From positions 173,268 through 237,267 of the forward strand of contig PLXC01000020.1 in the NCBI GenBank assembly GCA_003151275.1: a stretch of 64,000 nt of DNA, read 5' to 3'. Within the stretch, counting starts at the first letter, position 1. Every line of letters starts with the position of its first letter. Below the pieces are notes generated by a model that was not told where the DNA came from, made no database searches, and saw only the letters and a program-made list of their open reading frames with translations. A program made the position numbers and the translations under genes. Below are positions 1 to 32,395 of this stretch, one piece after another. Source of the DNA: Candidatus Melainabacteria bacterium (GTDB lineage: Bacteria > Cyanobacteriota > Vampirovibrionia > Obscuribacterales > Obscuribacteraceae).

Positions 1-360
1 TTCGACGTTGTAATTTTTGATCTAGCCGATAGTCTTTCCATTTCCAGCAAGATTTTTGCCCGATTGCAACGCAGCTTAGAACGATCACGAACAGCATTGA
101 TTCTTTTAAAAGATGAAGACAATACCAGCACGACAATTTCTTCATGGGGATGCCAGTCCCGCTTTACCTTCGGATGGTCATCATCAAATGTCCATTGTGA
201 AGTTGGTTTGTCTGGGGTGGTGTCAATTATTCCGGCAATAAAAACAGACCTTTGGAAAGAGGGAATGACAAAAAGTATAGAGGTGAATATCCAATCGCAT
301 GTCTCGAATTGCTTGTTTACGCATCCCCAAATTCCAGATCGCCGTACATCAAAAACGTGA
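1..360 (+). CDS. imuA: ImuA-like RecA-fold protein, C-terminal part
   Basis: This open frame runs in from the left edge, so only the last 119 codons are seen. It opens with a Walker B-like strand (VVIFDLADSLS) followed by a helix and a second strand (RTALILLKDED), the layout of the C-terminal half of the RecA/SulA-like core in ImuA. ImuA works with ImuB and DnaE2 in SOS-induced, error-prone translesion synthesis. The identification rests mainly on the neighbour: imuB starts inside its 3' end (62-bp overlap), the usual imuA-imuB arrangement. The remaining tail is poorly conserved and gives no further motif. The promoter and any LexA operator lie outside the window. Confidence 0.65.
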   Translation, partial: FDVVIFDLADSLSISSKIFARLQRSLERSRTALILLKDEDNTSTTISSWGCQSRFTFGWSSSNVHCEVGLSGVVSIIPAIKTDLWKEGMTKSIEVNIQSHVSNCLFTHPQIPDRRTSKT

Positions 361-1906
361 GCCTGAACTTAAGAAGAAGGCGTTTGTTTTATTGGCTGAT
401 GGACAAAAACCGACCAACAAAGTAAATCTGAGTCGTGCCCGCATTTTTATGTGTTCTGATTCTGCCAGTAAAAAATATATTGTCGCTGGAATGAAGTGGA
501 CGGAAGCAAGAGCCACATGCGCAAATTTAACATGGCGTCAATGCGATCTTAAATCATATCGAGAAGCGCAGGCAGTTATAGTAAATGAATTGATCGTCTG
601 CTCGCCTCGAGTTTCAGCGCGAGAACCAGGCATTTTTATTTTGGATGCAGATGGTTTGCAACGCCTCGGTGGTGAAGGAAAACTTTGTCGCGATCTATTG
701 AGGTTGGTTAGTAAATTAGGTTACACAAATGGCCAAATTGGTATAGCAGATTCCGCATTTGCGGCGATGGTGGCAAGTCGCTCGAAGAATCGCTGGCATA
801 TCATTCCACCTGGAAAAGATCTTGATTTTTTGAAGCCACTTTCAATTGCACATCTTGCTTTAGATTTGGATTTACAAGAAATGTTTGTGGATCTCGGTAT
901 TAAATCAATGGGACATCTGGCGCAAATTCCTGCTGACAATGTTGCTGAACGATTTGGACAAGATGCAGTCACAGCGCAACAACTAGTGTTAGGACTGGAT
1001 AAGGCTCAACCAAGTGTGCCCGTTCGCGAAAAAGAGTTTAACGCGTATGTTGAAATTGATGGACCAATTGAATCTTTGAATCAAACTATATTTCTATTTA
1101 AAGCAATGCTCGATCATTTACAAAGGCAATTGCAGAATGAGGGATACTGTGCAGAGGAATTATTGCTTCAATTCTTTAACGACGATGAGCTCTTTTATGA
1201 TCGTCCAGTAAAACTTGTGCGTCCATCCAATAACGCTAAATTTTTACTGGAAGTTTTGAGATTGACGATCGAAGCGCATCCACTCAAGCGAGAATTTACG
1301 TCGATCAAATTACATATCATGCGTTTTTGTAAAGAGTCATTTCAGCAAACCCAAGTTGAAGTTGACCACGATGCAGTAGGAAATAATAGCGATCAACAAA
1401 CCAATCTTTTGCAAAAGTTTTTGACTAGATTGGGAGAAAATTCTTTGGTTCGTCCAGTTGCAAATGATCAACATGCACCTGAAGTTTCAGGTGTTTGGGT
1501 GCCTGTTTTTTCGCCTAATCAAGCTTCAGGTCGAACAGAGTTGAATCTTGATAATTCTGCAGCTAAAAATTCAGTGGCAGTTGACATTGATTATGTTAAG
1601 GACAAAACCGGGCTACGTGGATTGACCTCCGGGCTTGTTTTAAAGCAGTTACCAAATGCGGTGCCTGTATTTGTCGAATTTAACAGCGGCGCACCACAAG
1701 CAATTGCATATCAAGGTCGATGGCATCACATTCTCAAAATAACATCAGCAGAATGTTTGTCAGGCTTATGGTGGGATGAACCATTTCGTAAGTCATATCA
1801 TGTTGCTTTAATAGAGCCTAAATATGATCCTGGATCATGCATGCTTGTTTTGCTAGTACATGATCATCTTCAGAAGTTATGGTCTATTGAAGGCATCTTT
1901 GATTAA
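299..1906 (+). CDS. imuB: ImuB, Y-family polymerase-like protein (catalytically dead type)
   Basis: 535 aa. The N-terminus MSRIACLRIPKFQIAV matches the first beta strand of ImuB proteins, which supports the start even though it overlaps imuA by 62 bp. Around residues 100-125 (REPGIFILDADGLQRLGGE) it aligns with the Y-family palm strand that normally carries the catalytic Asp-Glu pair; that pair is absent here, as is usual in ImuB, which acts as an adaptor between the beta clamp and DnaE2 and not as a polymerase. An HhH-like segment follows (LGIKSMGHLAQIPADNVAERFG). The C-terminal third is variable. The expected third partner, dnaE2, is not adjacent but about 6.7 kb downstream on the same strand. 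Confidence 0.88.
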   Translation: MSRIACLRIPKFQIAVHQKREPELKKKAFVLLADGQKPTNKVNLSRARIFMCSDSASKKYIVAGMKWTEARATCANLTWRQCDLKSYREAQAVIVNELIVCSPRVSAREPGIFILDADGLQRLGGEGKLCRDLLRLVSKLGYTNGQIGIADSAFAAMVASRSKNRWHIIPPGKDLDFLKPLSIAHLALDLDLQEMFVDLGIKSMGHLAQIPADNVAERFGQDAVTAQQLVLGLDKAQPSVPVREKEFNAYVEIDGPIESLNQTIFLFKAMLDHLQRQLQNEGYCAEELLLQFFNDDELFYDRPVKLVRPSNNAKFLLEVLRLTIEAHPLKREFTSIKLHIMRFCKESFQQTQVEVDHDAVGNNSDQQTNLLQKFLTRLGENSLVRPVANDQHAPEVSGVWVPVFSPNQASGRTELNLDNSAAKNSVAVDIDYVKDKTGLRGLTSGLVLKQLPNAVPVFVEFNSGAPQAIAYQGRWHHILKITSAECLSGLWWDEPFRKSYHVALIEPKYDPGSCMLVLLVHDHLQKLWSIEGIFD

Positions 1907-2137: not shown

Positions 2138-4888
2138 ATGAATAATACGCTGACTAGAATTTGGAGTTTGAAATTGGGCGGCAATTTAGAAGCACTGAGC
2201 GTCGAACCAAAGAAACCTGTTGAATCATCTGGCTGGCTGATGGACAACATAGCTCACCCATTCGTCAACGCTGCCGTTATCGACCCTATCAATGCTGTTG
2301 CTTCCGTTAGCGAAGCCGTTTCCGGTAAACATTTACCCCGAGTAGACCTACTTGCAGTGCCGGAGAGCCATGGAACTGGCGCATGGCTGGCGCAAACACT
2401 ATCTGGTGGTGTCGGCGCTATCGCTCCTTACGTCGTAGCCGGGAAAATGACTGGTGGGGCATTAGAGGGTGGCGGACGTTTTCTTGAGAGTAACAATATA
2501 ATTCAGGCCGGTGGCTTGTCTGCAAAGATGCTGGCCAGCGAGCGCACTGCCATGATTGTTGGCGCTGGTTTGTACGGCGGCGCTCGAGATCCTATGGGAC
2601 ACGAAACACGGCTCGGAAACTCGGTCGGCAGCATGATCGGCTTCGGTGCATTTGAATATGGAAATTCGCTCACGAAGGGATTATCTCTCTCTCGAAGCAT
2701 TCCAATCCGCGCTCTTATCGGTGTTGTTGGCGGGTCGGGTCAGATGGCTACGTCGAATCTAATTTCCGAAGGCAATATTGGATCGACCGATAATCTTATG
2801 AGAGCCGGCGCGTCCGGTGCAGCATTAAACTTGTTCTTGCCCGCCGCCCAACATCAACTAGGTAAAGCTATTGATGCTACCAATGTTCGGTTAGGCAGAC
2901 CAATTCCAGTCGATCACTTTGTGGCTCGGGAAAATTGGACTGACAACAACCAATTGCAATCACTGGTAAACCGCAGTCCGCTCACTCGTGTTCAAAGAGC
3001 TGGTGAACAGGGCATCAACCAAGACACCAACGTAGTTCAACTCGGTCCTAAAGATGGTCCCGAGAAACTGGGCCACGAAGTTAGCCACCGCATCAGCGCA
3101 AAGCAAGCTGAGCCGGCTTACAGAGAAGCCGCCGACCTTCTGAAAACAGATCCAGAAGCAGCAAAACAGAAGTTTATCGATATTCGAACCGCCCAAGAAA
3201 AAGCAGCAATGGAAGCGGAAACTCGCGTCAAAGCGGCAATGGATGCTAAGTCTCCTTACGCTGACACAAATCCAGACACGATTCAACAACTGCGCGCCAA
3301 CAAGGATCTGACTTACGGCGATTTGTTCAAGCAAGAAGCGTCGCAATTTGAAAGTACTGGCGGGAAATTCAGACCTTCAAGAGACTTTGCCGGCTCGACC
3401 TCGGATTATCGCGGTATCAATCCTGAGAACGGCCTGCACTTATTTGTTTATGATAAACCGACTAGTTCTCCATATGGAGAAGTTGCCGCCTACGAAACAA
3501 ATGACGACCTGTCATTTCAACGTTGGACCAAAATGGACGCAAAAGTTGATGACGCCGGAAAGACTTGGGGCTCCGTAGAATTATTTTCCAAACCAACACC
3601 AACTCCATTCGGAACCGCCACGATGGTGGAGTCATTCCCCGATCATTCAACTGCCTACCACATCGTTGAAGGCGACGGAGTTGCTAACAACACTGTTGTT
3701 CGTGCGTACACTAAAGGTTTGCAGACTGAGTACGGCACAATCACATCCACCGTTACACACCCTGATGGTCGTGTTGACTTCGGTAAATTAGATGGTACAT
3801 CCGCCACTTCTTATGCCACACCAGTAGAGCAATGGTATGGAAAAGTAAAAGCGGAAGATACCAAATCTGATGGCACCACCTTTTATCACCTGACTGATGG
3901 TGGCACCATTGAATATTACGCAAACCCGCTGAAAGTTCAGATGGCCTTGGGAGACGGTTCTGTTCGAGATGTCCAAGTTGAGACAGCCTGGCGCAGTAAT
4001 GGTAAGGCATCACGTTCGATGATCGACCGCATCCTGGAACGCGGCACAGAACCCGCTGCAGGCGAACCTGTCGCCAATTCCGCTCCTAACAAATCTGAAT
4101 ACCTTTTGACTAATGAAACGTCGATGGAACAAACTTTTCATCCAGACAGGATTGAAATAACTGAAAGACCGCTAAATGGTCAAACTTCAACATTCTCTTC
4201 TCAGTTTATAGTCGAAAGTTTTGATGCGCCGATTCAAACACCTGAAGGACCGGTAAACAAAATGGTGCGCAGCTTCGACAGCACCGTTTATCATATTGCC
4301 GACGTTTACGGCACACGGGTTCAGGTTTATGACTCGACTCACGTGAGACCAACAGATTATGGTGACGCCAATCGGGTTGTCTATTCTAGAGATAATTTCG
4401 AAGAGTACACCAAACTAAATGGAAATAAGGTGCTAACGAATCCAAAGGGCATCACAACTGACTATGGTGTGGCTCGAGCAATAGAAACGGCACCAGATAA
4501 AACTGAATATTATCATCGTCCCGACGGCACGATTGTCGAGAAGTATCCTTATGACTTGACTACTAACATCGGCGGCATTACTGCCATCGAACAAAAGCCA
4601 CAAGGATTAATCCTGTACCGTCCAGAAGGCTCACCGGAGTTTCACTCTCTCGAGCTTGATTTCGCCAACAAGCGCATGACCTTCGCCGATGCTGACGGCA
4701 ACTTAATCGCAAATGGATACAAAACGCTGACAGACTTCATTCTTATGCGCAAGTTTAATCCTACTCAATATCCTGACGGCAAGCTGATGCCTCAAGGTAA
4801 AGTTCGCAGCATCGAGACTGACGTGAACGGAGTCAGCACCTATCAACTGACAGACGGAACGTCTGTAACCGATGCCGCAAAACTATAG
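2138..4888 (+). CDS. Large protein with HExxH motif and degenerate beta-repeats
   Basis: 916 aa, family not recognised. Residues about 60-250 are Gly/Ala-rich and hydrophobic, with several possible membrane-inserting helices but no N-terminal signal peptide. Residues 308-325 contain PEKLGHEVSHRIS, an HExxH zincin-type motif (His313, Glu314, His317) resembling the helix of DUF4157/eCIS-core metalloproteases; a possible third ligand Glu lies near residue 400. Residues about 435-880 are degenerate repeats of roughly 45-50 residues with recurring YGxxxxxE, PDG and YHxxDG elements, like YD/RHS-type sheets. It lies between imuB and dnaE2 but shows no repair domain. The ATG has no strong ribosome site. 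A cell-surface or toxin-like role is possible but unproven. Confidence 0.75.
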   Translation: MNNTLTRIWSLKLGGNLEALSVEPKKPVESSGWLMDNIAHPFVNAAVIDPINAVASVSEAVSGKHLPRVDLLAVPESHGTGAWLAQTLSGGVGAIAPYVVAGKMTGGALEGGGRFLESNNIIQAGGLSAKMLASERTAMIVGAGLYGGARDPMGHETRLGNSVGSMIGFGAFEYGNSLTKGLSLSRSIPIRALIGVVGGSGQMATSNLISEGNIGSTDNLMRAGASGAALNLFLPAAQHQLGKAIDATNVRLGRPIPVDHFVARENWTDNNQLQSLVNRSPLTRVQRAGEQGINQDTNVVQLGPKDGPEKLGHEVSHRISAKQAEPAYREAADLLKTDPEAAKQKFIDIRTAQEKAAMEAETRVKAAMDAKSPYADTNPDTIQQLRANKDLTYGDLFKQEASQFESTGGKFRPSRDFAGSTSDYRGINPENGLHLFVYDKPTSSPYGEVAAYETNDDLSFQRWTKMDAKVDDAGKTWGSVELFSKPTPTPFGTATMVESFPDHSTAYHIVEGDGVANNTVVRAYTKGLQTEYGTITSTVTHPDGRVDFGKLDGTSATSYATPVEQWYGKVKAEDTKSDGTTFYHLTDGGTIEYYANPLKVQMALGDGSVRDVQVETAWRSNGKASRSMIDRILERGTEPAAGEPVANSAPNKSEYLLTNETSMEQTFHPDRIEITERPLNGQTSTFSSQFIVESFDAPIQTPEGPVNKMVRSFDSTVYHIADVYGTRVQVYDSTHVRPTDYGDANRVVYSRDNFEEYTKLNGNKVLTNPKGITTDYGVARAIETAPDKTEYYHRPDGTIVEKYPYDLTTNIGGITAIEQKPQGLILYRPEGSPEFHSLELDFANKRMTFADADGNLIANGYKTLTDFILMRKFNPTQYPDGKLMPQGKVRSIETDVNGVSTYQLTDGTSVTDAAKL

Positions 4889-4895
4889 GTTGGGT

Positions 4896-4917
4896 TCTAA
4901 ACCGATATCGGTTTAGA
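4896..4917. repeat. Perfect 22-bp palindrome (CCGATATCGG family), copy A
   Basis: A perfect 22-bp inverted repeat with core CTAAACCGATATCGGTTTAG starts 8 bp after the stop codon of the preceding gene. No T-tract follows, so it is a poor Rho-independent terminator. The same core recurs at 52903-53060 (array) and 63259-63272, always between genes. It may be a protein-binding site or a mobile palindrome. Confidence 0.85.
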
Positions 4918-5032
4918 GTTAAAACCTGATCTTACTCATCAATTTTTTCTAAAGCCGGGCACATTATCGGGTCGACTCACGTCGCATCCACTTTGCGCCC
5001 TATAGTCCCTGTTAATACAGTGAGGAGAAACA

Positions 5033-5422
5033 ATGACCACAGTTATAAACAATGATGGAACTGTTCCGCCAGTTCGAAAGGTATTTCTTGCCGGCGGTGG
5101 AAACGCTGGTCGCGTCTTTGAAGCTGCTTATGATCATCTCTATGTAATCGAAGTAGCCCCTAAATTAAACGGTGGCGCACTCCCTGAAGGCAGCTTTAGC
5201 GTTAACAATGCAGTTATACGCCCTTTAAGATATAACGCAACTGGCAAATTTGAAGCTGTAGGAGAGGAAAATCTAGAAATTTATGAATTCGTCGGTTTCG
5301 AAAGAATGTTGATCATCGAACGAGACGTAATGAATAATTTGGACACGCTGAATCGGCTAGATGCGGTTGTCACAGGAGCGACAGTGGTAAAAGACGAACC
5401 TGTGGTAGTGGTTCGACAGTAG
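5033..5422 (+). CDS. Conserved-looking hypothetical protein
   Basis: 129 aa, not recognised. The start is well supported by GAGGAG six bases before the ATG, and a TATAGT hexamer at 5001-5006 could be its -10 box, although no good -35 box sits at the right spacing. The sequence is soluble, with alternating short beta strands (KVFLAGGG, LYVIEVAP, RMLIIERD, EPVVVVRQ) and no signal peptide, cysteines or membrane segments. The GGGNAGRVFEAAYDH stretch is only superficially like a nucleotide-binding loop. It ends in a convergent arrangement with the protease gene at 5563-8220, separated by a strong hairpin. Confidence 0.7.
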   Translation: MTTVINNDGTVPPVRKVFLAGGGNAGRVFEAAYDHLYVIEVAPKLNGGALPEGSFSVNNAVIRPLRYNATGKFEAVGEENLEIYEFVGFERMLIIERDVMNNLDTLNRLDAVVTGATVVKDEPVVVVRQ

Positions 5423-5473
5423 AGACCTAACTACCTCACACTGGTACATCAGATCACAGGGCAGTTTGGCTGT

Positions 5474-5506
5474 AAGCACTTCGGAGGAAGCCCCTCTGAA
5501 GTGCTT
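5474..5506. terminator. Hairpin between convergent genes
   Basis: Two 14-nt arms (5474-5487 and 5493-5506, AAGCACTTCGGAGG against CCTCTGAAGTGCTT, one G-T wobble) flank a 5-nt loop. It lies between the ends of the convergent genes at 5422 and 5563, the position expected for a bidirectional terminator. No long T-tract follows on either strand. Confidence 0.7.
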
Positions 5507-5562
5507 GTGCCTTGTGAAGCAGAAAATGTGGATTCCTACCTGCCACGTCTTAGCGTGATCGA

Positions 5563-8220
5563 CTAGGTGGTTGCTTGGTAGAGATCGTGTATCGAGACCC
5601 ATTTGTCATAGGTTAACTTCCAGCTGTTATCCAGGTGCGCCATGCCCGTGCGGGCGTCGTAACTATCAATACAAACCACATGCCCACCTGGTTTTCGTGT
5701 AGGTTCAGCGGTGCCGAGCAGCGGATCTCCGTCGGTTACTCCGATGATAATCGGTAACCGACGATCTTTAGTCGCCTGCTCCAGCTGCTCTCTTAATTCT
5801 TGCTCGTCGCCGAAACTTACTAATCCGTCTGCACCGCCTACGTTTCTATTGAGGAATGTAGTCTTCTGCACTCCAGTTATTCGCTCGGCTTCTTTGCCGA
5901 TGTCGCTGAATCTGATTCCTTCAAATGGCATAAATTTGCCATCTTGTGCTACAAGCGGTTTTCCGTTTGCATCCGTCCAATAGTTGATTTCTGGTTCATC
6001 TTTTGTGGGAGGCAAACAGGAGAAGTATTTGGGCGTCGTCTCTCTTTGTCCGACATCGTTGATCAAAGTCCCTTGAATCAACTGCGAAGCGAAACTGCGC
6101 GATCCATCGTTGGGCGGATTATATACGGACTCCGCTTCCGGCACCAGATTCTGCGGCGGAATCAAAATGAGTTTGCCATCGCGGGCGGTGTACGAACCAG
6201 TAAGCGCAACATCTGCCACCATGTTGGCCATGACTGCAGGATGAGTGAACCATGTTCTGATCTCAATGTCCGTCACATTGCACGTGAGATTGTTGCCTTG
6301 AGCAACGTGATCTGGACGAGCTGCTGAAGCCATAATTTGTTGAGCAAGTTGCTCGCGCAACTGCTGGGACACTTGTCCGTCAGTTGCTTCGAGTAGGCTT
6401 TGCGTGGAGGCGAGGGTTCGTGCAACCTCATCGGCGCTCATACCGCTTTGATGAGCACGCTCAAGGAAAATATTCATGTTATCAATGAATGCTTCGCGCT
6501 GAGGTCTGCTATCTGAACCGACAGCATCAGGAATCAACCTAGCTGCGTCATTTTGCAAGTCAGCCATAAATAGGTTTTCGTTTGCGCGAGTTGAATCGTC
6601 TGTATTTAGGTGTTGAGTGATGTCATCGGTAAGTTTCTTGCCGTACATGGCTTGATACTGACGCTCGACAGCACAACGGTCTGTCTGACTCAAGCTTTGG
6701 ATGATGTCATTGACTTTGTTACCATTTGCAAAAGCGAAACGAAACGCCGTATGATTTTCCTCATCGTAGATGTCTTTTGCCGCCTGCGTAATTTGATCGT
6801 AGGTCGCAGATGTCGCGGTTTGGTTCCCATCCGTGCCATTGATAACGACATGGTTGCCCCTATCCAGATAACCGTAGGAACCATCCACATCAATCTGCAG
6901 ATCATGTATACCTGTGTCATGCCCGTGGCCGTCAAGCCAACTTCCGTCGGTTCCTCGGTGCATGACTAGGCCATCAGGACTGGTAATCTTCTTTAGATCA
7001 CCTTTCTGGTAGCCGTTCGCGAAGTATTCGAATTGAGTCCTCTGACCGTTTTCGTATTTAATTTCAGAAATTTTTCCATCTAAGCCTTCTGTTATCGAAG
7101 AGTGATTTGGCTTCTCCACTGACATGGAACGATTTGGGGAGTAACTTGTAGTTAACCCCTCTTTGTTTGTTTCAGAGATTATCCCCTCAGCCGATACATT
7201 GATCTTGCTCAGCCCACTGTCAGTGCCGTCGGCGACGAGCCATTTGTTTCCTTTTAGCCTCCAAGAATTGCCGTCTGAATCAGAAACCTTACTTAGACGA
7301 TTTTGTCCTGCGCTATCCTGAGTAAAATCAAAATAGATACTCTTTCCGGTGCCATATTTAACTTCCGTTATTTGACCGTTGCAGTCACTTTTGACTGTCG
7401 ACTTCTCTTTTAAGTCGATCAGGGTGCAGCTCCCGTCTGGGTGGACTGTTTTGTTTCTGCCGTCCAGAGCTGTGTAACTTAAGGTGCCGTCGGTGGAAAC
7501 TGCAGGATTTACGTAATCCGGTTTTGGCTTTGCTCTAAACATCCGAAAGATGCTATGGTCGGTATCACGAGCGGTGCCATCATTTGCCGTTTCATAAGCC
7601 CATTCCCCGGACTTTGCATCTAATTTCGCCACCTTTCCATCAACATCAGTGATTTTATTCAGAGTTCCCTCGCTGTCATAACCAAACTTTCGAATTTGCC
7701 CGTTCGGATAGCTGATTTCTTTGACCCGGTTTTCATGATCTTTGCTGATTCCAACCTTACTGAAAGCTGTCTTTTCTGCGGTCTGTTCTAAAACTTTGCC
7801 GAAATTTATTGAACCGTCTGATCCAATGTTTCCTTTTGGCAATTCTCTAGCTAGCAGTTGTGCACCATGAACCAAGGCAGGCTCAGCGTCATTGTTCGTG
7901 CCGTCGGCGCGAGATTTATATACGGTGCCGTAGCGATCATAGTCGTCTATTTCATTTGTTCTGTCGAAGTTTTTGTTGAATTTATATACCGTACCGTAGC
8001 GATCGTAATCGTCAACGTTGTTGGTTCTGTCAGCGTTCTTGTTGAATTTATATACCGTGCCGTAGCGATCGTAATCGTCAACGTTACTTGCGTCATGGTT
8101 TTTGTGTGTATTGGAGGAGAGTGCTTTTGCAGTATCGTGCGCGTGCTCACTTAGGACCGCTCTGCTTTGAGCGCTGCTTTTTGAATCAGCGGATCCAAAA
8201 TTATTGAATGTTTCAGTCAT
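5563..8220 (-). CDS. Multidomain papain-like cysteine protease with YD-like repeats
   Basis: 885 aa from the chosen ATG, which has AGGAG nine bases upstream; the longer frame starting at 8259 has no ribosome site. In order: three near-identical 22-aa repeats built on DDYDRYGTVYKFNKN (about 47-111); YD/RHS-like repeats (about 160-460, e.g. YPNGQIRKFGYDSEG); an annexin-like segment (about 488-557, with RQYQAMYGKKLTDDI); and a C-terminal papain-fold domain with Gln641, Cys647 (NNLTCNVTD), His847 (GGHVVCIDSYD) and Asn865 (LDNSWK), a complete Gln/Cys/His/Asn set. No signal peptide is present, so export, if any, needs another route. It is transcribed away from dnaE2 and lies inside the split imu cassette. 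The family is not recognised as a whole. Confidence 0.78.
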   Translation of the reverse strand: MTETFNNFGSADSKSSAQSRAVLSEHAHDTAKALSSNTHKNHDASNVDDYDRYGTVYKFNKNADRTNNVDDYDRYGTVYKFNKNFDRTNEIDDYDRYGTVYKSRADGTNNDAEPALVHGAQLLARELPKGNIGSDGSINFGKVLEQTAEKTAFSKVGISKDHENRVKEISYPNGQIRKFGYDSEGTLNKITDVDGKVAKLDAKSGEWAYETANDGTARDTDHSIFRMFRAKPKPDYVNPAVSTDGTLSYTALDGRNKTVHPDGSCTLIDLKEKSTVKSDCNGQITEVKYGTGKSIYFDFTQDSAGQNRLSKVSDSDGNSWRLKGNKWLVADGTDSGLSKINVSAEGIISETNKEGLTTSYSPNRSMSVEKPNHSSITEGLDGKISEIKYENGQRTQFEYFANGYQKGDLKKITSPDGLVMHRGTDGSWLDGHGHDTGIHDLQIDVDGSYGYLDRGNHVVINGTDGNQTATSATYDQITQAAKDIYDEENHTAFRFAFANGNKVNDIIQSLSQTDRCAVERQYQAMYGKKLTDDITQHLNTDDSTRANENLFMADLQNDAARLIPDAVGSDSRPQREAFIDNMNIFLERAHQSGMSADEVARTLASTQSLLEATDGQVSQQLREQLAQQIMASAARPDHVAQGNNLTCNVTDIEIRTWFTHPAVMANMVADVALTGSYTARDGKLILIPPQNLVPEAESVYNPPNDGSRSFASQLIQGTLINDVGQRETTPKYFSCLPPTKDEPEINYWTDANGKPLVAQDGKFMPFEGIRFSDIGKEAERITGVQKTTFLNRNVGGADGLVSFGDEQELREQLEQATKDRRLPIIIGVTDGDPLLGTAEPTRKPGGHVVCIDSYDARTGMAHLDNSWKLTYDKWVSIHDLYQATT
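7888..8082 (-). repeat. Three 66-bp in-frame tandem repeats
   Basis: Within the protease gene a 66-bp unit is repeated three times, encoding 22 residues each (core DDYDRYGTVYKFNKN). The first two units are nearly identical in DNA and protein; the third diverges after VYK. The period is a multiple of three, so copy-number change would not shift the frame. Confidence 0.9.
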
Positions 8221-8413
8221 ATAGAATCGTGCTCCTGTAGCGGATGCGAGTAGTTGCATTCCGAAGTGTGAGATATGAAAGGAGGCAAAAACAGCTAAGA
8301 TACTTTGAGTTTGTCCTGCGATGTGGTGCGCAGTTGGTGCACTTACATAGAGGAATAGAACTCAGCGAATCTAAGCGAAATGGATTGGGAGGGGTAATGC
8401 GGTAATTCCGATT

Positions 8414-28579: not shown

Positions 28580-31543
28580 TCAACTGTGAATCGGAAGACT
28601 AAGCCAAAATGTACTTCCATGTCCAAGTTCGCTGACGACACTGACTGTGCCACCATGGGACTCAGCAATCAATTTGCAGATCGCTAGGCCAAGACCGAAC
28701 CCGCGCGCTTTATCGCTGGCCTTGGTTTGATAGAATCTCTCGAACAGCTGTTCTTGACTCTTCGCGTCCATGCCTGGCCCCTGATCTCGAACCCCGATTT
28801 TGAATGTATCGCCGTCGTGCTCAGTCACCACACTGATTTGGGTGTGAGGTGGAGAAAATTTGATGGCATTGGATAAATAATTGAGCAGGACTTGCAACAC
28901 TCTCGATCTATCCGCGGCGAGTTCGAAACCTTCACTCTCGTTCAACATCTGGATTTGACGATACTTGGCGATGCTAGCCAGTGCTGCAAGTGCTTCGTCG
29001 ACCGCCTCTCTGACTTCAAAAGGTTCAACGCGAATAGTGAGTTTGTTCTCTTCGGCACTTTCGAGAGTGAGCAAATCATCTACCAACTGCAGGATGCGCT
29101 CTATGTTTCCTTTGATAGCAAGAATATGTCGTGGTGCAGTGTCCGGCATTTTATCTAGTAAAAGCGGTTCAACTTGACTTAGAGAATCTCTCGCGGATGT
29201 AAGCGGTGAGCGCATATCGTCAACAAGAAGTTCGACGATCGCTTGCCTTTGTCTGGCCGCCTCGATTACCTCCTCGGCTCCTCTGTGCAGAATTTTATCC
29301 AGGTATACCAGTTCGTCGCCGCCGCTCAATTCTTCCAACAGCGGTTCTCGTCGCGGTAACTTCTTTGCATTTGCCACCAAAATGTTTAGACGTTTCGTAA
29401 TATGGATGTTGAATGCGAGCACCAATATCAGTGCCAGAATGAAGTTTGTAGCCAGCCATGCTAAGACAATTCTTTGTAAGGACTGTTTCGATTGAGTCTG
29501 TTCGGCACGCAGTCTTTCCAATTCGGCTTTTTCCTTAGCGAAGAGATCGTCATAGGTCGCTGCCACATATGACATTGCTTTGGAATAGTCGATGAACACT
29601 TGAAAGATAGAAGCAGAGCCCATCAATCCAAGATGTGGTCGTTCGGTAATTTGCAGCTGCAAATTCATTGGTTTGATCATCGCAAATTCAAATAGATCGA
29701 CCAACCTGGCCTCAGCGGGATAGCCGCTAGTTTGTTCCTTGAGTCTGGCCTGCACACTGCGAGCAACGTCGCCCTGCGCTTTGGCTTGTTCTTTCCATTT
29801 TGGATTTCCTGAAAGGGCATAACTAGCCGCATTTACAGTCACATCAAAAGTTGCGTTCAATCCTGCGTTTACATTGAGCAGTGTGTCGGTTAAACGTTGG
29901 ATCGTCGTTGCTTGCGCTTCTCCAATTTGCAATTCGTGATTGAGCCAGCCGATCCAGAGCGCTTCAAGACACAAAGGAATAATCACGAGAGCGATTCCCT
30001 TGTGAATAATGCGCGCGCCAAACCATCCTTTCGGTTTATATTGATTGAAGGATTTTGGACTATATTTAGTACCACTAATTACAGGCACAGTCGCTTCAGG
30101 AATTGCAGCACTAGGCATTCTCACCCAGAGCGAATTGAAGCCATCGTTTTGCTCAAAACCTACCGCCCCACCATGAGACTGCGCAATCAGCTGGCAAGTA
30201 ACAAGGCTGAGACCAGCGGCTGTACTTTTGTTGCCGTGCTTTGGGAATTTTCTGAAAAGATCAGTGCGTACGGAACGATCGAGTGGCGGACCAGGTACTT
30301 TGACTAAGACTCTGACACCATCTTCGGTGGTTTCTGCGAACACGGATATTTCCGGCTCACTTCCTGGAAATGCTTTCACACTGGCGAAGTAATTTATCAA
30401 TAGCTGTTCGAACTTTTCTTTGTCTGCGCGAATCAATCGATCAGGGCAAGTATTCTTTATGGAAAACTCAGTCAGATCGCCGACTTCCCTATAAGTGAGA
30501 ATTGCCTCGTCAACTGCCTCTTTGATGTTGAATTCGCTGACACTGAAATCGACTTTCCCTGCTTCAAATCTTTCAATTGTCAAAAGCTCGTTGACCAGCC
30601 TGAGCACTTGATTGACGTACTGGCTTACTGACTCAAGTATATGCGCCGCGGCGGTTGGCAATTTTGCCGACTGTGGATGATTGAGAACTTCAGTCGATAC
30701 CTGAGCAGCCATGAGCGGTGAGCGCATATCGTGCGCCACCATTTCCATTATCGATCTACGATGATCGTCGGACTGGCATAACTGCTCGTTTGCTGCATGC
30801 ATTACCGTATCCAGATAGGCAAGTTCGTCGCTGCCGGAGACAACTTTAGTCAGCTTTTCGCGCAAAGGTAACCTGCGAGCGTTGTCTATCAGTAATTGAA
30901 GACGACCAGTGATGTTGCTGTTGAACAAGTACAGAAGCAATGCAGCCAGGGCAAAATTGCTGGACAGCCCCGCATATACAAGAAACTTGACCCGGTTTCG
31001 CGCAGATTGTTCACGTGCCCTTGTGGCGGCCAGTCCGTTCATTTCTGCTTGCATCAATGTGCCAATTTTTTCGCCGTCGCTTATACCCAACCGAAGTAGC
31101 GGTCCGAGGTCTCTGCAAGCACCTAAGTTATCAAGCATGGTCGAACCCGGCTGTGCAGATGGCAGAGCAATTAGGGACTTCCACTCGGTCTCAGACATGC
31201 GTTCAAGTTCGCTTATGGTCTCGAGTCTCGCTGGATCGTTTGCAGACAGCTCTCGAAGCTGTTCATAGTGCTTGTGTAGTGCGTTGTGTTTCCTATTGGC
31301 GTATATTGCCCATGCTATTTTGGGATCGAACATGCGGCTCATCAATTCCAAGATAACGACGTGTCTGTCTTCACTTGCGCCGGCAAGATGCATGGCAAAG
31401 TCTCTTTGTTTTGTCTCTTCAACAGCCAAATACTCTGTAGACAGCCATAACTGACTGAGCAAAAGAAGCCACAGTGTCTCGAGGATTAGAGGTATTAGAA
31501 CGAGCGCCAGACCCTTATGCAAGATGCGCGGTTGGAGACTCAC
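28580..31543 (-). CDS. Tandem double histidine kinase with complementary lesions
   Basis: 987 aa from GTG, nine bases after the upstream TPR stop. It is two kinases end to end (about 1-480 and 505-987), each with a helix, extracytoplasmic region, second helix, HAMP-like linker, HisKA and HATPase. Half one keeps the phospho-acceptor (VAHDMRSPL, His271), but its ATPase is degenerate: N-box Asn replaced by Ser388, and G1 DxGxG replaced by VPGPP (Val416). Half two has an intact ATPase (NYLSNAIKFS with Asn892, DQGPGM with Asp920, GFGLGLAICK), but its acceptor is Asp775 (LVDDMRSPL). Together they make one complete kinase, implying that half two phosphorylates His271 in cis or across a dimer. No intact response regulator lies next to it. 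Confidence 0.93.
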   Translation of the reverse strand: MSLQPRILHKGLALVLIPLILETLWLLLLSQLWLSTEYLAVEETKQRDFAMHLAGASEDRHVVILELMSRMFDPKIAWAIYANRKHNALHKHYEQLRELSANDPARLETISELERMSETEWKSLIALPSAQPGSTMLDNLGACRDLGPLLRLGISDGEKIGTLMQAEMNGLAATRAREQSARNRVKFLVYAGLSSNFALAALLLYLFNSNITGRLQLLIDNARRLPLREKLTKVVSGSDELAYLDTVMHAANEQLCQSDDHRRSIMEMVAHDMRSPLMAAQVSTEVLNHPQSAKLPTAAAHILESVSQYVNQVLRLVNELLTIERFEAGKVDFSVSEFNIKEAVDEAILTYREVGDLTEFSIKNTCPDRLIRADKEKFEQLLINYFASVKAFPGSEPEISVFAETTEDGVRVLVKVPGPPLDRSVRTDLFRKFPKHGNKSTAAGLSLVTCQLIAQSHGGAVGFEQNDGFNSLWVRMPSAAIPEATVPVISGTKYSPKSFNQYKPKGWFGARIIHKGIALVIIPLCLEALWIGWLNHELQIGEAQATTIQRLTDTLLNVNAGLNATFDVTVNAASYALSGNPKWKEQAKAQGDVARSVQARLKEQTSGYPAEARLVDLFEFAMIKPMNLQLQITERPHLGLMGSASIFQVFIDYSKAMSYVAATYDDLFAKEKAELERLRAEQTQSKQSLQRIVLAWLATNFILALILVLAFNIHITKRLNILVANAKKLPRREPLLEELSGGDELVYLDKILHRGAEEVIEAARQRQAIVELLVDDMRSPLTSARDSLSQVEPLLLDKMPDTAPRHILAIKGNIERILQLVDDLLTLESAEENKLTIRVEPFEVREAVDEALAALASIAKYRQIQMLNESEGFELAADRSRVLQVLLNYLSNAIKFSPPHTQISVVTEHDGDTFKIGVRDQGPGMDAKSQEQLFERFYQTKASDKARGFGLGLAICKLIAESHGGTVSVVSELGHGSTFWLSLPIHS

Positions 31544-31552
31544 GATAGCGGC

Positions 31553-32395
31553 CTACTTCTTGTCCTTCGTTAGGAACGGACTTTCGTTGTACAGTTCTTG
31601 TTCAACCTTCCGGACGGCAGCCTTATCTTCTAGTGCACGTTTGGTGTCTTTGAGAGTTTCATAGCAGCTCGCCCGCTCACCAAGAAGCTCTACGAGCATT
31701 TTAAAAGCCGGATAGATTTCGCGGCTCTCTTTGTCTATACGCTGTATCTTTTCCCGCTGAGTCTTCACAAGAAAATCGAAATCAATGAGCGCCTGTCGCG
31801 GTTGTTTTAAAGCCATTAGGGCCCGGGCGCGATGCTCGCGGCCGTTAAACTCATCACCGCTCTTTAGGATTTCGGATGACATTTGAAGTGCCATCTCGTT
31901 ATCACCACTCAGACGCGCGCAATCGGATATTTCAGTCAATAGGGTCTTTACTCCGAGTTGTCGGGCGATTTTTAAAGTCTTGATCGCGTCCTTATATTTC
32001 CCTTGTTTTTGGTAAAGTTTGCCCAATTCTGTAGCTGCATTACTAGCTGAATACTTATTTTTTGAATTTATCAACTTCTGGTAATCGGCGATGCATTCGT
32101 CGAAGCGATGTTCATTGCGATATTCCTCTGCACGTTCCAGGCGCACAGCATCATCATTTGGATGCGTACTCAGATATTTGGAATAGCAGTTAATCGCTTC
32201 TTCGTCATCAAACATTTGTTTGTTGTGTCGAGCACGTTTCAGTAAGTCTTCGCCCGATTCAATTTTCGCTGGTGCTGAGCCGGTCGGTTTGTGACTCTGG
32301 TCAGAATTGTTAGAACAATACCCAGGCAGAGCCCACTGCATCAAAAGAGCGCTCAAAAGAACGAGTAGAATGCCGTTGCTTTTAGTAGTTTTCAC
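31553..32395 (-). CDS. Exported TPR protein
   Basis: 280 aa from a GTG. A Sec signal peptide is clear (SNGILLVLLSALLMQWALPG, ending GYCSN; the Cys may make it a lipoprotein, but the lipobox LPGYC is weak). TPR units follow: ARHNKQMFDDEEAINCYSKY, AEEYRNEHRFDECIADYQKL, LGKLYQKQGKYKDAIKTLKI and a C-terminal pair around REHRARALMALKQPRQALID. It is translated just ahead of the double kinase (nine-base gap), so it probably works with that sensor, perhaps presenting a periplasmic ligand. That link is inference from gene order. Confidence 0.83.
   Translation of the reverse strand: MKTTKSNGILLVLLSALLMQWALPGYCSNNSDQSHKPTGSAPAKIESGEDLLKRARHNKQMFDDEEAINCYSKYLSTHPNDDAVRLERAEEYRNEHRFDECIADYQKLINSKNKYSASNAATELGKLYQKQGKYKDAIKTLKIARQLGVKTLLTEISDCARLSGDNEMALQMSSEILKSGDEFNGREHRARALMALKQPRQALIDFDFLVKTQREKIQRIDKESREIYPAFKMLVELLGERASCYETLKDTKRALEDKAAVRKVEQELYNESPFLTKDKK

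Follow-up and report, generated by a model that had tools for sequence, protein, structure and literature searches.

The window analysed here, a stretch of 64,000 nucleotides, carries on its minus strand the gene of a two-unit histidine kinase in which each half has the layout of a membrane-bound sensor kinase, from its transmembrane segments (TM) and sensor to a HAMP-like part, a DHp domain and an ATPase (CA) domain (Table 1). By hydropathy there are two membrane segments per half (residues ~7-35 and 187-207 in half 1, 508-535 and 688-717 in half 2), and Pfam matched HisKA (PF00512, 5.3e-12) and HATPase_c (PF02518, 5.7e-35) in two stretches each. Neither CheA-type domains (Hpt-type P1, P3-P5) nor a receiver (Response_reg) appeared among the five Pfam families matching the protein with E up to 1, and in NCBIfam the 25 best-scoring families for each of three proteins included none that reached its cut-off. 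A preliminary description of this DNA, which left out the strand of the gene, had presented the protein as a duplicated kinase whose halves lost complementary parts, so that the ATPase of half 2 must serve the acceptor histidine of half 1.

Table 1. Window positions of the kinase gene, its domains and key residues, and the adjoining gene.
Feature	Position	Strand	Basis or remark
Two-unit histidine kinase gene	28580..31543	minus	GTG start at 31543, stop 28580-28582, 987 amino acids, single open reading frame
Half 1: TM1 - sensor - TM2 - HAMP-like - DHp1 - CA1, residues 1-480	30104..31543	minus	
DHp1, residues 249-335, acceptor His kept	30539..30799	minus	profile
His271, acceptor position	30731..30733	minus	half alignment and profile
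CA1, residues 361-478, degenerate ATPase with N-box, G1 and G2 lesions	30110..30463	minus	50.5 bits against 156.8 for CA2
Ser388 at N-box Asn position	30380..30382	minus	half alignment and profile
Val416 at G1 Asp position	30296..30298	minus	half alignment and profile
Half 2: TM3 - sensor - TM4 - HAMP-like - DHp2 - CA2, residues 497-987	28583..30055	minus	
DHp2, residues 753-840, without acceptor His	29024..29287	minus	profile
Asp775 at acceptor position	29219..29221	minus	half alignment and profile
CA2, residues 863-986, intact ATPase	28586..28957	minus	6 of 6 motif positions present
Asn892, N box	28868..28870	minus	half alignment and profile
Asp920, G1 box	28784..28786	minus	half alignment and profile
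G2 box GFGLGL, residues 948-953	28685..28702	minus	profile
TPR-repeat gene, ends 9 bases before the kinase start	31553..32395	minus	same order in L001

One acceptor and one intact ATPase in two halves

The two halves align over 485 positions with 30% identity (E 1e-63), and this alignment places all six residues named in the preliminary description (H271, S388, V416, D775, N892 and D920) as it had claimed. We scored the domains with DHp and CA profiles built from 31 seed rows, namely 30 single kinases of the same family and half 2 of the window protein. We chose the motif positions of the N, G1 and G2 boxes ourselves, and an ATPase was called lesioned under our own rule when one or more of six such positions were lost. 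CA1 scored 50.5 bits and has lost four of the six ATP-site positions: the N-box Asn, the G1 Asp, the second Gly of G1 and the last Gly of GxGLG (AAGLSL). The two losses described before, at Ser388 and Val416, are thus real but make up only half of the damage. CA2, taken earlier to be intact, proved so with 156.8 bits and no position lost. Its score, like that of DHp2, is flattered because half 2 served as a profile seed, and in the relative P0003, which is not a seed, the values were 50.2 bits for CA1 and 153.5 for CA2. The DHp domains scored 74.4 (DHp1) and 82.1 bits (DHp2, the seed), and DHp2 is a normal DHp except for the absent histidine.

Neither half therefore combines an acceptor histidine with intact N, G1 and G2 boxes; the histidine is found only in half 1 and the intact ATPase only in half 2, and the chain as a whole has one acceptor (H271) and one lesion-free ATPase (CA2). 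The suggestion that homologues be checked for this pattern was borne out in L001 (95% identity), P0002 (68%) and P0003 (57%), the closest among the matches listed. The dN/dS ratio (non-synonymous to synonymous substitution rates) between the window gene and L001 was 0.11 overall, with 0.148 in CA1, 0.125 in CA2, 0.177 in DHp1 and 0.071 in DHp2, every domain lying within 0.06-0.18; the low values in CA1 and DHp2 show that neither degenerate part is drifting freely. We rejected a pseudogene or a sequencing error because the gene is one open frame, CA1 has as many as four motif lesions, three homologues share the pattern and dN/dS is 0.11 overall. We likewise rejected the idea that Asp775 is an acceptor of a new chemical kind. 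In half 2 Asp is indeed the residue most often found instead of the histidine, but the family as a whole has eleven different replacements, so there is no shared new acceptor.

Opposite-half losses across the family

A stretch of protein counted as a unit when a match to our TM2-HAMP profile preceded DHp and CA. Among 515 sequences, 182 had two units, and 166 remained after dereplication at 90% identity (16 dropped). The protein searches supplied the best 120 of 376, 1230 and 488 matches and were seeded with one window-type protein, one alignment and one protein of the mirrored type, in which half 1 lacks the histidine but has an intact ATPase 1 and half 2 has the histidine but a lesioned ATPase 2; hence the shares of the states given here are biased. 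Both halves were complete in 78 of the 166 kinases. The window type accounted for 33, of which 20 had no detectable CA1 and 13 a degenerate one, "no CA1" meaning undetected by our profile (P0227, with 989 amino acids, is long enough to hold a decayed one). Another 43 were mirrored, 40 with two or more lesions and three (P0142, P0121 and P0123) with one. The remainder comprised four kinases with only ATPase 1 lesioned or absent, three with only ATPase 2 lesioned, two with only His 1 lost, two with a truncated second half and one (P0182) with both histidines lost.

In all 76 kinases that lost one histidine by substitution and one ATPase by lesion or loss of the domain, the two losses affect different halves; 33 of these kinases have the window order and 43 are mirrored. 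Loss within one half was considered and rejected as a pattern: it occurred only as two truncated second halves, in L002, which has a stop after the second sensor, and in P0190, labelled 'partial' by its source. Across 165 rows (P0190 left out), ATPase 2 was lost in 44 of the 46 kinases without His 1, and ATPase 1 in 34 of the 35 without His 2. Dereplication at 70% identity left 63 opposite-half losses against one same-half loss (a truncation), and at 50% there were 33 against none; under a stricter rule of two or more lesions, at 70%, the count was 60 of 138 opposite-half and one same-half. A census of three genomes, covering listed matches with long frames, gave 20 two-unit kinases, of which 15 had opposite-half losses (one, L051 2687-5923, scored on a single lesion), two had ATPase-only losses, two were complete and one was truncated. 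In control two-module kinases of another architecture, both histidines were present in 36 of 36 and no ATPase lesion in 33 of 36, P0258 having two lesions in its second ATPase; these were chosen for two recognisable ATPases and are uninformative on lost domains. The H-box Pro was kept in 78 of 80 DHp domains without a histidine.

The losses arose more than once. Our tree was built by a quick method from 321 aligned columns, with the histidine column removed, and has many open forks and long branches. Parsimony required 11 changes among the complete, window-type and mirrored states, six for the window type versus the rest and seven for the mirrored type; the number of origins is approximate, given the quick method and the places where long branches come together. 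Separate origins lie in starred clades that also hold complete relatives: mirrored P0172 with P0166, mirrored P0130 with P0145 and P0158, and window-type P0235 with P0191, P0199 and P0202. Among independent pairs, His 1 and CA2 changed the same way in 6.0 and in opposite ways in 0 of 8, and His 2 and CA1 in 5.7 and 0 of 9 (median p 0.031 each). The same-half controls showed no association in such pairs (0.3 versus 1.3 and 1.0 versus 0.8).

The argument given with the reciprocal losses for an origin by duplication is not supported. It was drawn from the near-identical DMRSPL around both acceptor positions; this is the ordinary H-box of the kinase family, common to single kinases, and as a family motif it appears to be a weak argument for duplication. 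In the TM2-HAMP-DHp stretch, identity between the halves is 36%, while their identity to single-unit kinases reaches 47% and 41%, so that each half is nearer to these than to the other half. A recent duplication in place was rejected, as each half of the window protein groups with its own orthologues in a small clade apart from the other half (deeper forks unresolved) and is nearer to single kinases. The two halves may stem from an ancient duplication or from a fusion of paralogues. There is also a relative, P0225, whose two halves are sisters in the tree.

Among individual homologues, half 1 of P0015-P0025 and L003-L009 has the histidine but an ATPase domain could not be detected in it, and in their half 2 the histidine became R, E, Q, L, D or N (P0021 retains it). 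At all seven loci L003-L009, which are closely related and of the no-CA1 type, a gene with a receiver-type start (by pattern match) divergently adjoins the kinase start. In L006 (kinase frame 5602-8304, regulator frame 4928-5725), the only one so confirmed, Pfam found receiver and OmpR-type DNA-binding domains in this neighbour; at least this group looks like a working two-component system. Six mirrored genes share one contig of the L001 genome G001 (C66; L050 3059-18427, with one member at 3059-5986, and L051 2687-8927), and a seventh lies on another (L053 1665-4601); a receiver-domain gene (L050 2-475) is on contig C66 as well. Genome G001, with 7.8 million bases, holds 162 stretches matching the window kinase query, several of which may share one gene, and has a very large kinase set.

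Several kinases depart from these types. The truncated L002 gene (5959-8331, the same gene as L054 1254-3626) has a complete half 1 and a half 2 that stops after the sensor/HAMP-like part, with no DHp2 or CA2. P0182, without acceptor histidines, has an undetectable CA1 and a degenerate CA2; it may be a dead gene or encode a protein that acts purely as a receptor. In P0214 and P0229, His 1 became Gln and both ATPases are apparently intact, which is the reverse order of loss. L056 896-4417 and L107 8653-12141, from two genomes and outside the control set, encode a different two-module kinase without this sensor unit; Thr occupies its first acceptor position (ANVSTELRTPL), and its two ATPases are intact.

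At the window locus itself, a scan of six neighbouring genes turned up no response regulator. The adjoining TPR-repeat gene is a possible operon partner, co-transcribed with the kinase. The closest relative record, L001 (PLZS01000060.1, a metagenome-assembled genome of Candidatus Melainabacteria), is collinear with the window around the kinase (TPR gene, kinase, MFS transporter, second TPR gene); beyond the second TPR gene, both have HlyD-like and ABC-like genes, as judged by eye.

Proposed phosphorylation across the halves

From the residue pattern, its conservation, its recurrence and the selection on both halves we infer how the halves pair, which one phosphorylates which, in what order the events ran and what the signal logic is. 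The window protein is probably a kinase dimer in a single chain, in which the ATPase of one unit phosphorylates the histidine of the other, and from which reciprocal losses would follow. With two membrane helices per half and presumably cytosolic ends, units could be joined head to tail, and DHp1 and DHp2 would pair like the two protomers of an ordinary kinase dimer. The ATPase of half 2 would phosphorylate His271 of half 1, in trans between units and inside one chain, while CA1 and DHp2 may persist as structural or regulatory parts. Both units of such fused dimers would have been complete at the outset. One ATPase may have failed first in most lines, the histidine of the other unit then losing its only donor and being lost in turn, with either order allowed. 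The resulting sensor would have two input domains but only a single acceptor and a single ATPase.

The seven ATPase-only losses (three with a single lesion) against two histidine-only losses hint that the ATPase may go first. In a trans dimer, the loss of one ATPase leaves the other unit's histidine without a donor and therefore free to go; in a cis dimer, it makes the histidine of the same unit useless and so produces a dead half. Only the trans-type outcome was observed. To judge by their residues, the 76 kinases with opposite-half losses would need cross-half phosphorylation, if they are kinases on their own. The reciprocal loss and the division of labour put forward in the preliminary description, with the ATPase of half 2 serving the histidine of half 1, are supported to this extent by comparison.

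We modelled the window protein with AlphaFold2 from 73 aligned two-unit proteins, itself included (predicted local distance difference test, pLDDT, 85.5; predicted template modelling score, pTM, 0.65). Among 50 PDB rows matching the model, 24 run from half 1, mostly the DHp1 region, to CA2; 11 lie within half 2, including the top row by Z, DivL; and 15 cover CA2 or nearly so. HK853 entries make up 13 of the 24 composite rows, eight at 2.5-2.8 Å over 222-229 residues (e.g. 6rgy_B, 257..986) and five at 3.1-6.6 Å; the row at rank 27 (21.7 Å) is meaningless. Read from the range ends alone, the model is suggestive of a helix bundle shared by the halves, with CA2 lying on its DHp1 side. For the complete tandem P0008, modelled alike (pLDDT 84.2, pTM 0.64), only one of 50 rows was composite; the other 49 were within half 1 or CA1, with HK853 at 5.2-8.3 Å, which neither favours nor excludes a trans geometry in complete tandems.

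The sequence pattern demands a transfer across the halves yet cannot separate one chain from two. The tandem might dimerise, through DHp1-DHp1' and DHp2-DHp2' or head to tail, with CA2 serving His271 of the other chain, and ordinary histidine kinases are homodimers according to an excerpt of PMC3904827. We consider this arrangement rather unlikely, given that the topology permits pairing within the chain and that the single-chain model gave composite DHp1-CA2 alignments in 24 of 50 rows, though only one chain was modelled, so a two-chain form could not appear. His271 might instead be phosphorylated by a separate kinase, half 2 being a regulatory ATPase or phosphatase module. Other donors do exist, given the 162 matching stretches (several perhaps sharing a gene) in the genome of the closest relative, and interacting sensor kinases are known, such as GacS and its partner (excerpt of PMC5992135). 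This proposal nevertheless leaves unexplained both the opposite-half losses in 76 of 76 kinases and the single histidine and single ATPase per chain, and seems improbable to us. Plain decay of a redundant second copy, with uncoupled halves, could account for L002, which lost most of one half, and P0182, which lost both histidines, but it predicts same-half losses as frequent as opposite ones. None was seen in 76, two truncations aside, and with dN/dS at 0.148 in CA1 and 0.071 in DHp2 as well, we give this explanation very little credence.

The kinds of homologue that the preliminary description had named as refuting its reading gave a mixed picture. A complete half 1 was found in P0004-P0012, where both halves are complete, and a histidine in half 2 was found in P0021 and in P0014 and L052, which have both histidines and lost ATPase 1 alone. 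These are more distant paralogues at 30-33% identity, which look like earlier stages, and the three closest homologues found keep the pattern. The argument for trans over cis has one reservation: dead halves may be deleted fast, and L002 may be such a case; this bears only on the ancestral mode.

The larger result is that paired losses in a large kinase family of Obscuribacterales/Melainabacteria follow a rule: they fall in opposite halves, whichever half loses the histidine. The best explanation is that these proteins are single-chain kinase dimers which have come down to a single acceptor and a single ATPase. We lean, if only slightly, towards the wider view that Obscuribacterales repeatedly made obligate fused dimers of this kind in both polarities, autophosphorylating in trans. 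They would form a class of single-chain heterodimeric two-input sensor kinases, perhaps favoured since a fused pair cannot mispair in kinase-rich genomes.

Comparison with known kinases

Each half of the window protein has the domains, fold and motif boxes of HisKA transmembrane sensor kinases (the HK853, CpxA, DivL and EnvZ class). It differs from them in having two units in one chain, neither with both the histidine and an intact ATPase. Mammalian adenylyl cyclases and CFTR-like ABC transporters are fused dimers with one working and one degenerate site; these are different enzymes from the window kinase, and no homology is implied.

Whether a kinase acts in cis or in trans is usually settled protein by protein with paired mutants, and here evolution repeated the paired lesions within single chains; the mode would thus be readable from sequence and testable on ready-made proteins. 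Intermolecular complementation of EnvZ reportedly relies on the same kind of lesion pair. The MtrB assay divides lesions of these two kinds, H305Q and N419D, between a pair of protomers, and its paired mutants assigned MtrB to cis (excerpt of PMC5956149); in the window protein the lesions are natural, fixed and on one chain. An ordinary kinase dimer labels its own histidine in cis or in trans, as in VicK and CpxA, respectively, depending on the handedness of the bundle, and kinase dimers may be asymmetric (excerpt of PMC3904827). The proteins described here would be obligate heterodimers made by nature, with a single acceptor and a single ATPase under the control of two distinct sensor domains, and could serve the study of kinase asymmetry and of cross-talk avoidance in genomes with very many related kinases.

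Two kinase modules per protein also occur in two-transmitter hybrid kinases and fungal dual hybrid histidine kinases, according to excerpts of PMC3018481 and PMC5285503, which make no mention of complementary loss. The former gives receiver domains in 96.2% of two-transmitter kinases, unlike the window protein within the Pfam scope above, and two transmitters in only 2 of 15,704 non-hybrid kinases. By titles and abstract starts, we recognised no literature on tandem kinases with complementary losses or on Obscuribacterales kinases; this covers open-licence papers only, the best of longer lists (e.g. 15 of 61, 12 of 64), and is weak evidence of absence.

HisKA proteins without an ATPase domain number 1,556 of 42,417 in an excerpt of PMC3591291. 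The same source describes the split kinase CheA3/CheA4 of Rhodobacter sphaeroides, which, like the window protein, carries the acceptor on one unit and the ATPase on the other; it is active only when both are together, as the window protein would be. CheA3 and CheA4 are two separate CheA-type proteins, whereas here a single HisKA-type membrane sensor chain holds both units, and 78 of 166 relatives are complete in each. The window protein would work like a split kinase, yet it is not one, since its two units are read from a single open reading frame.

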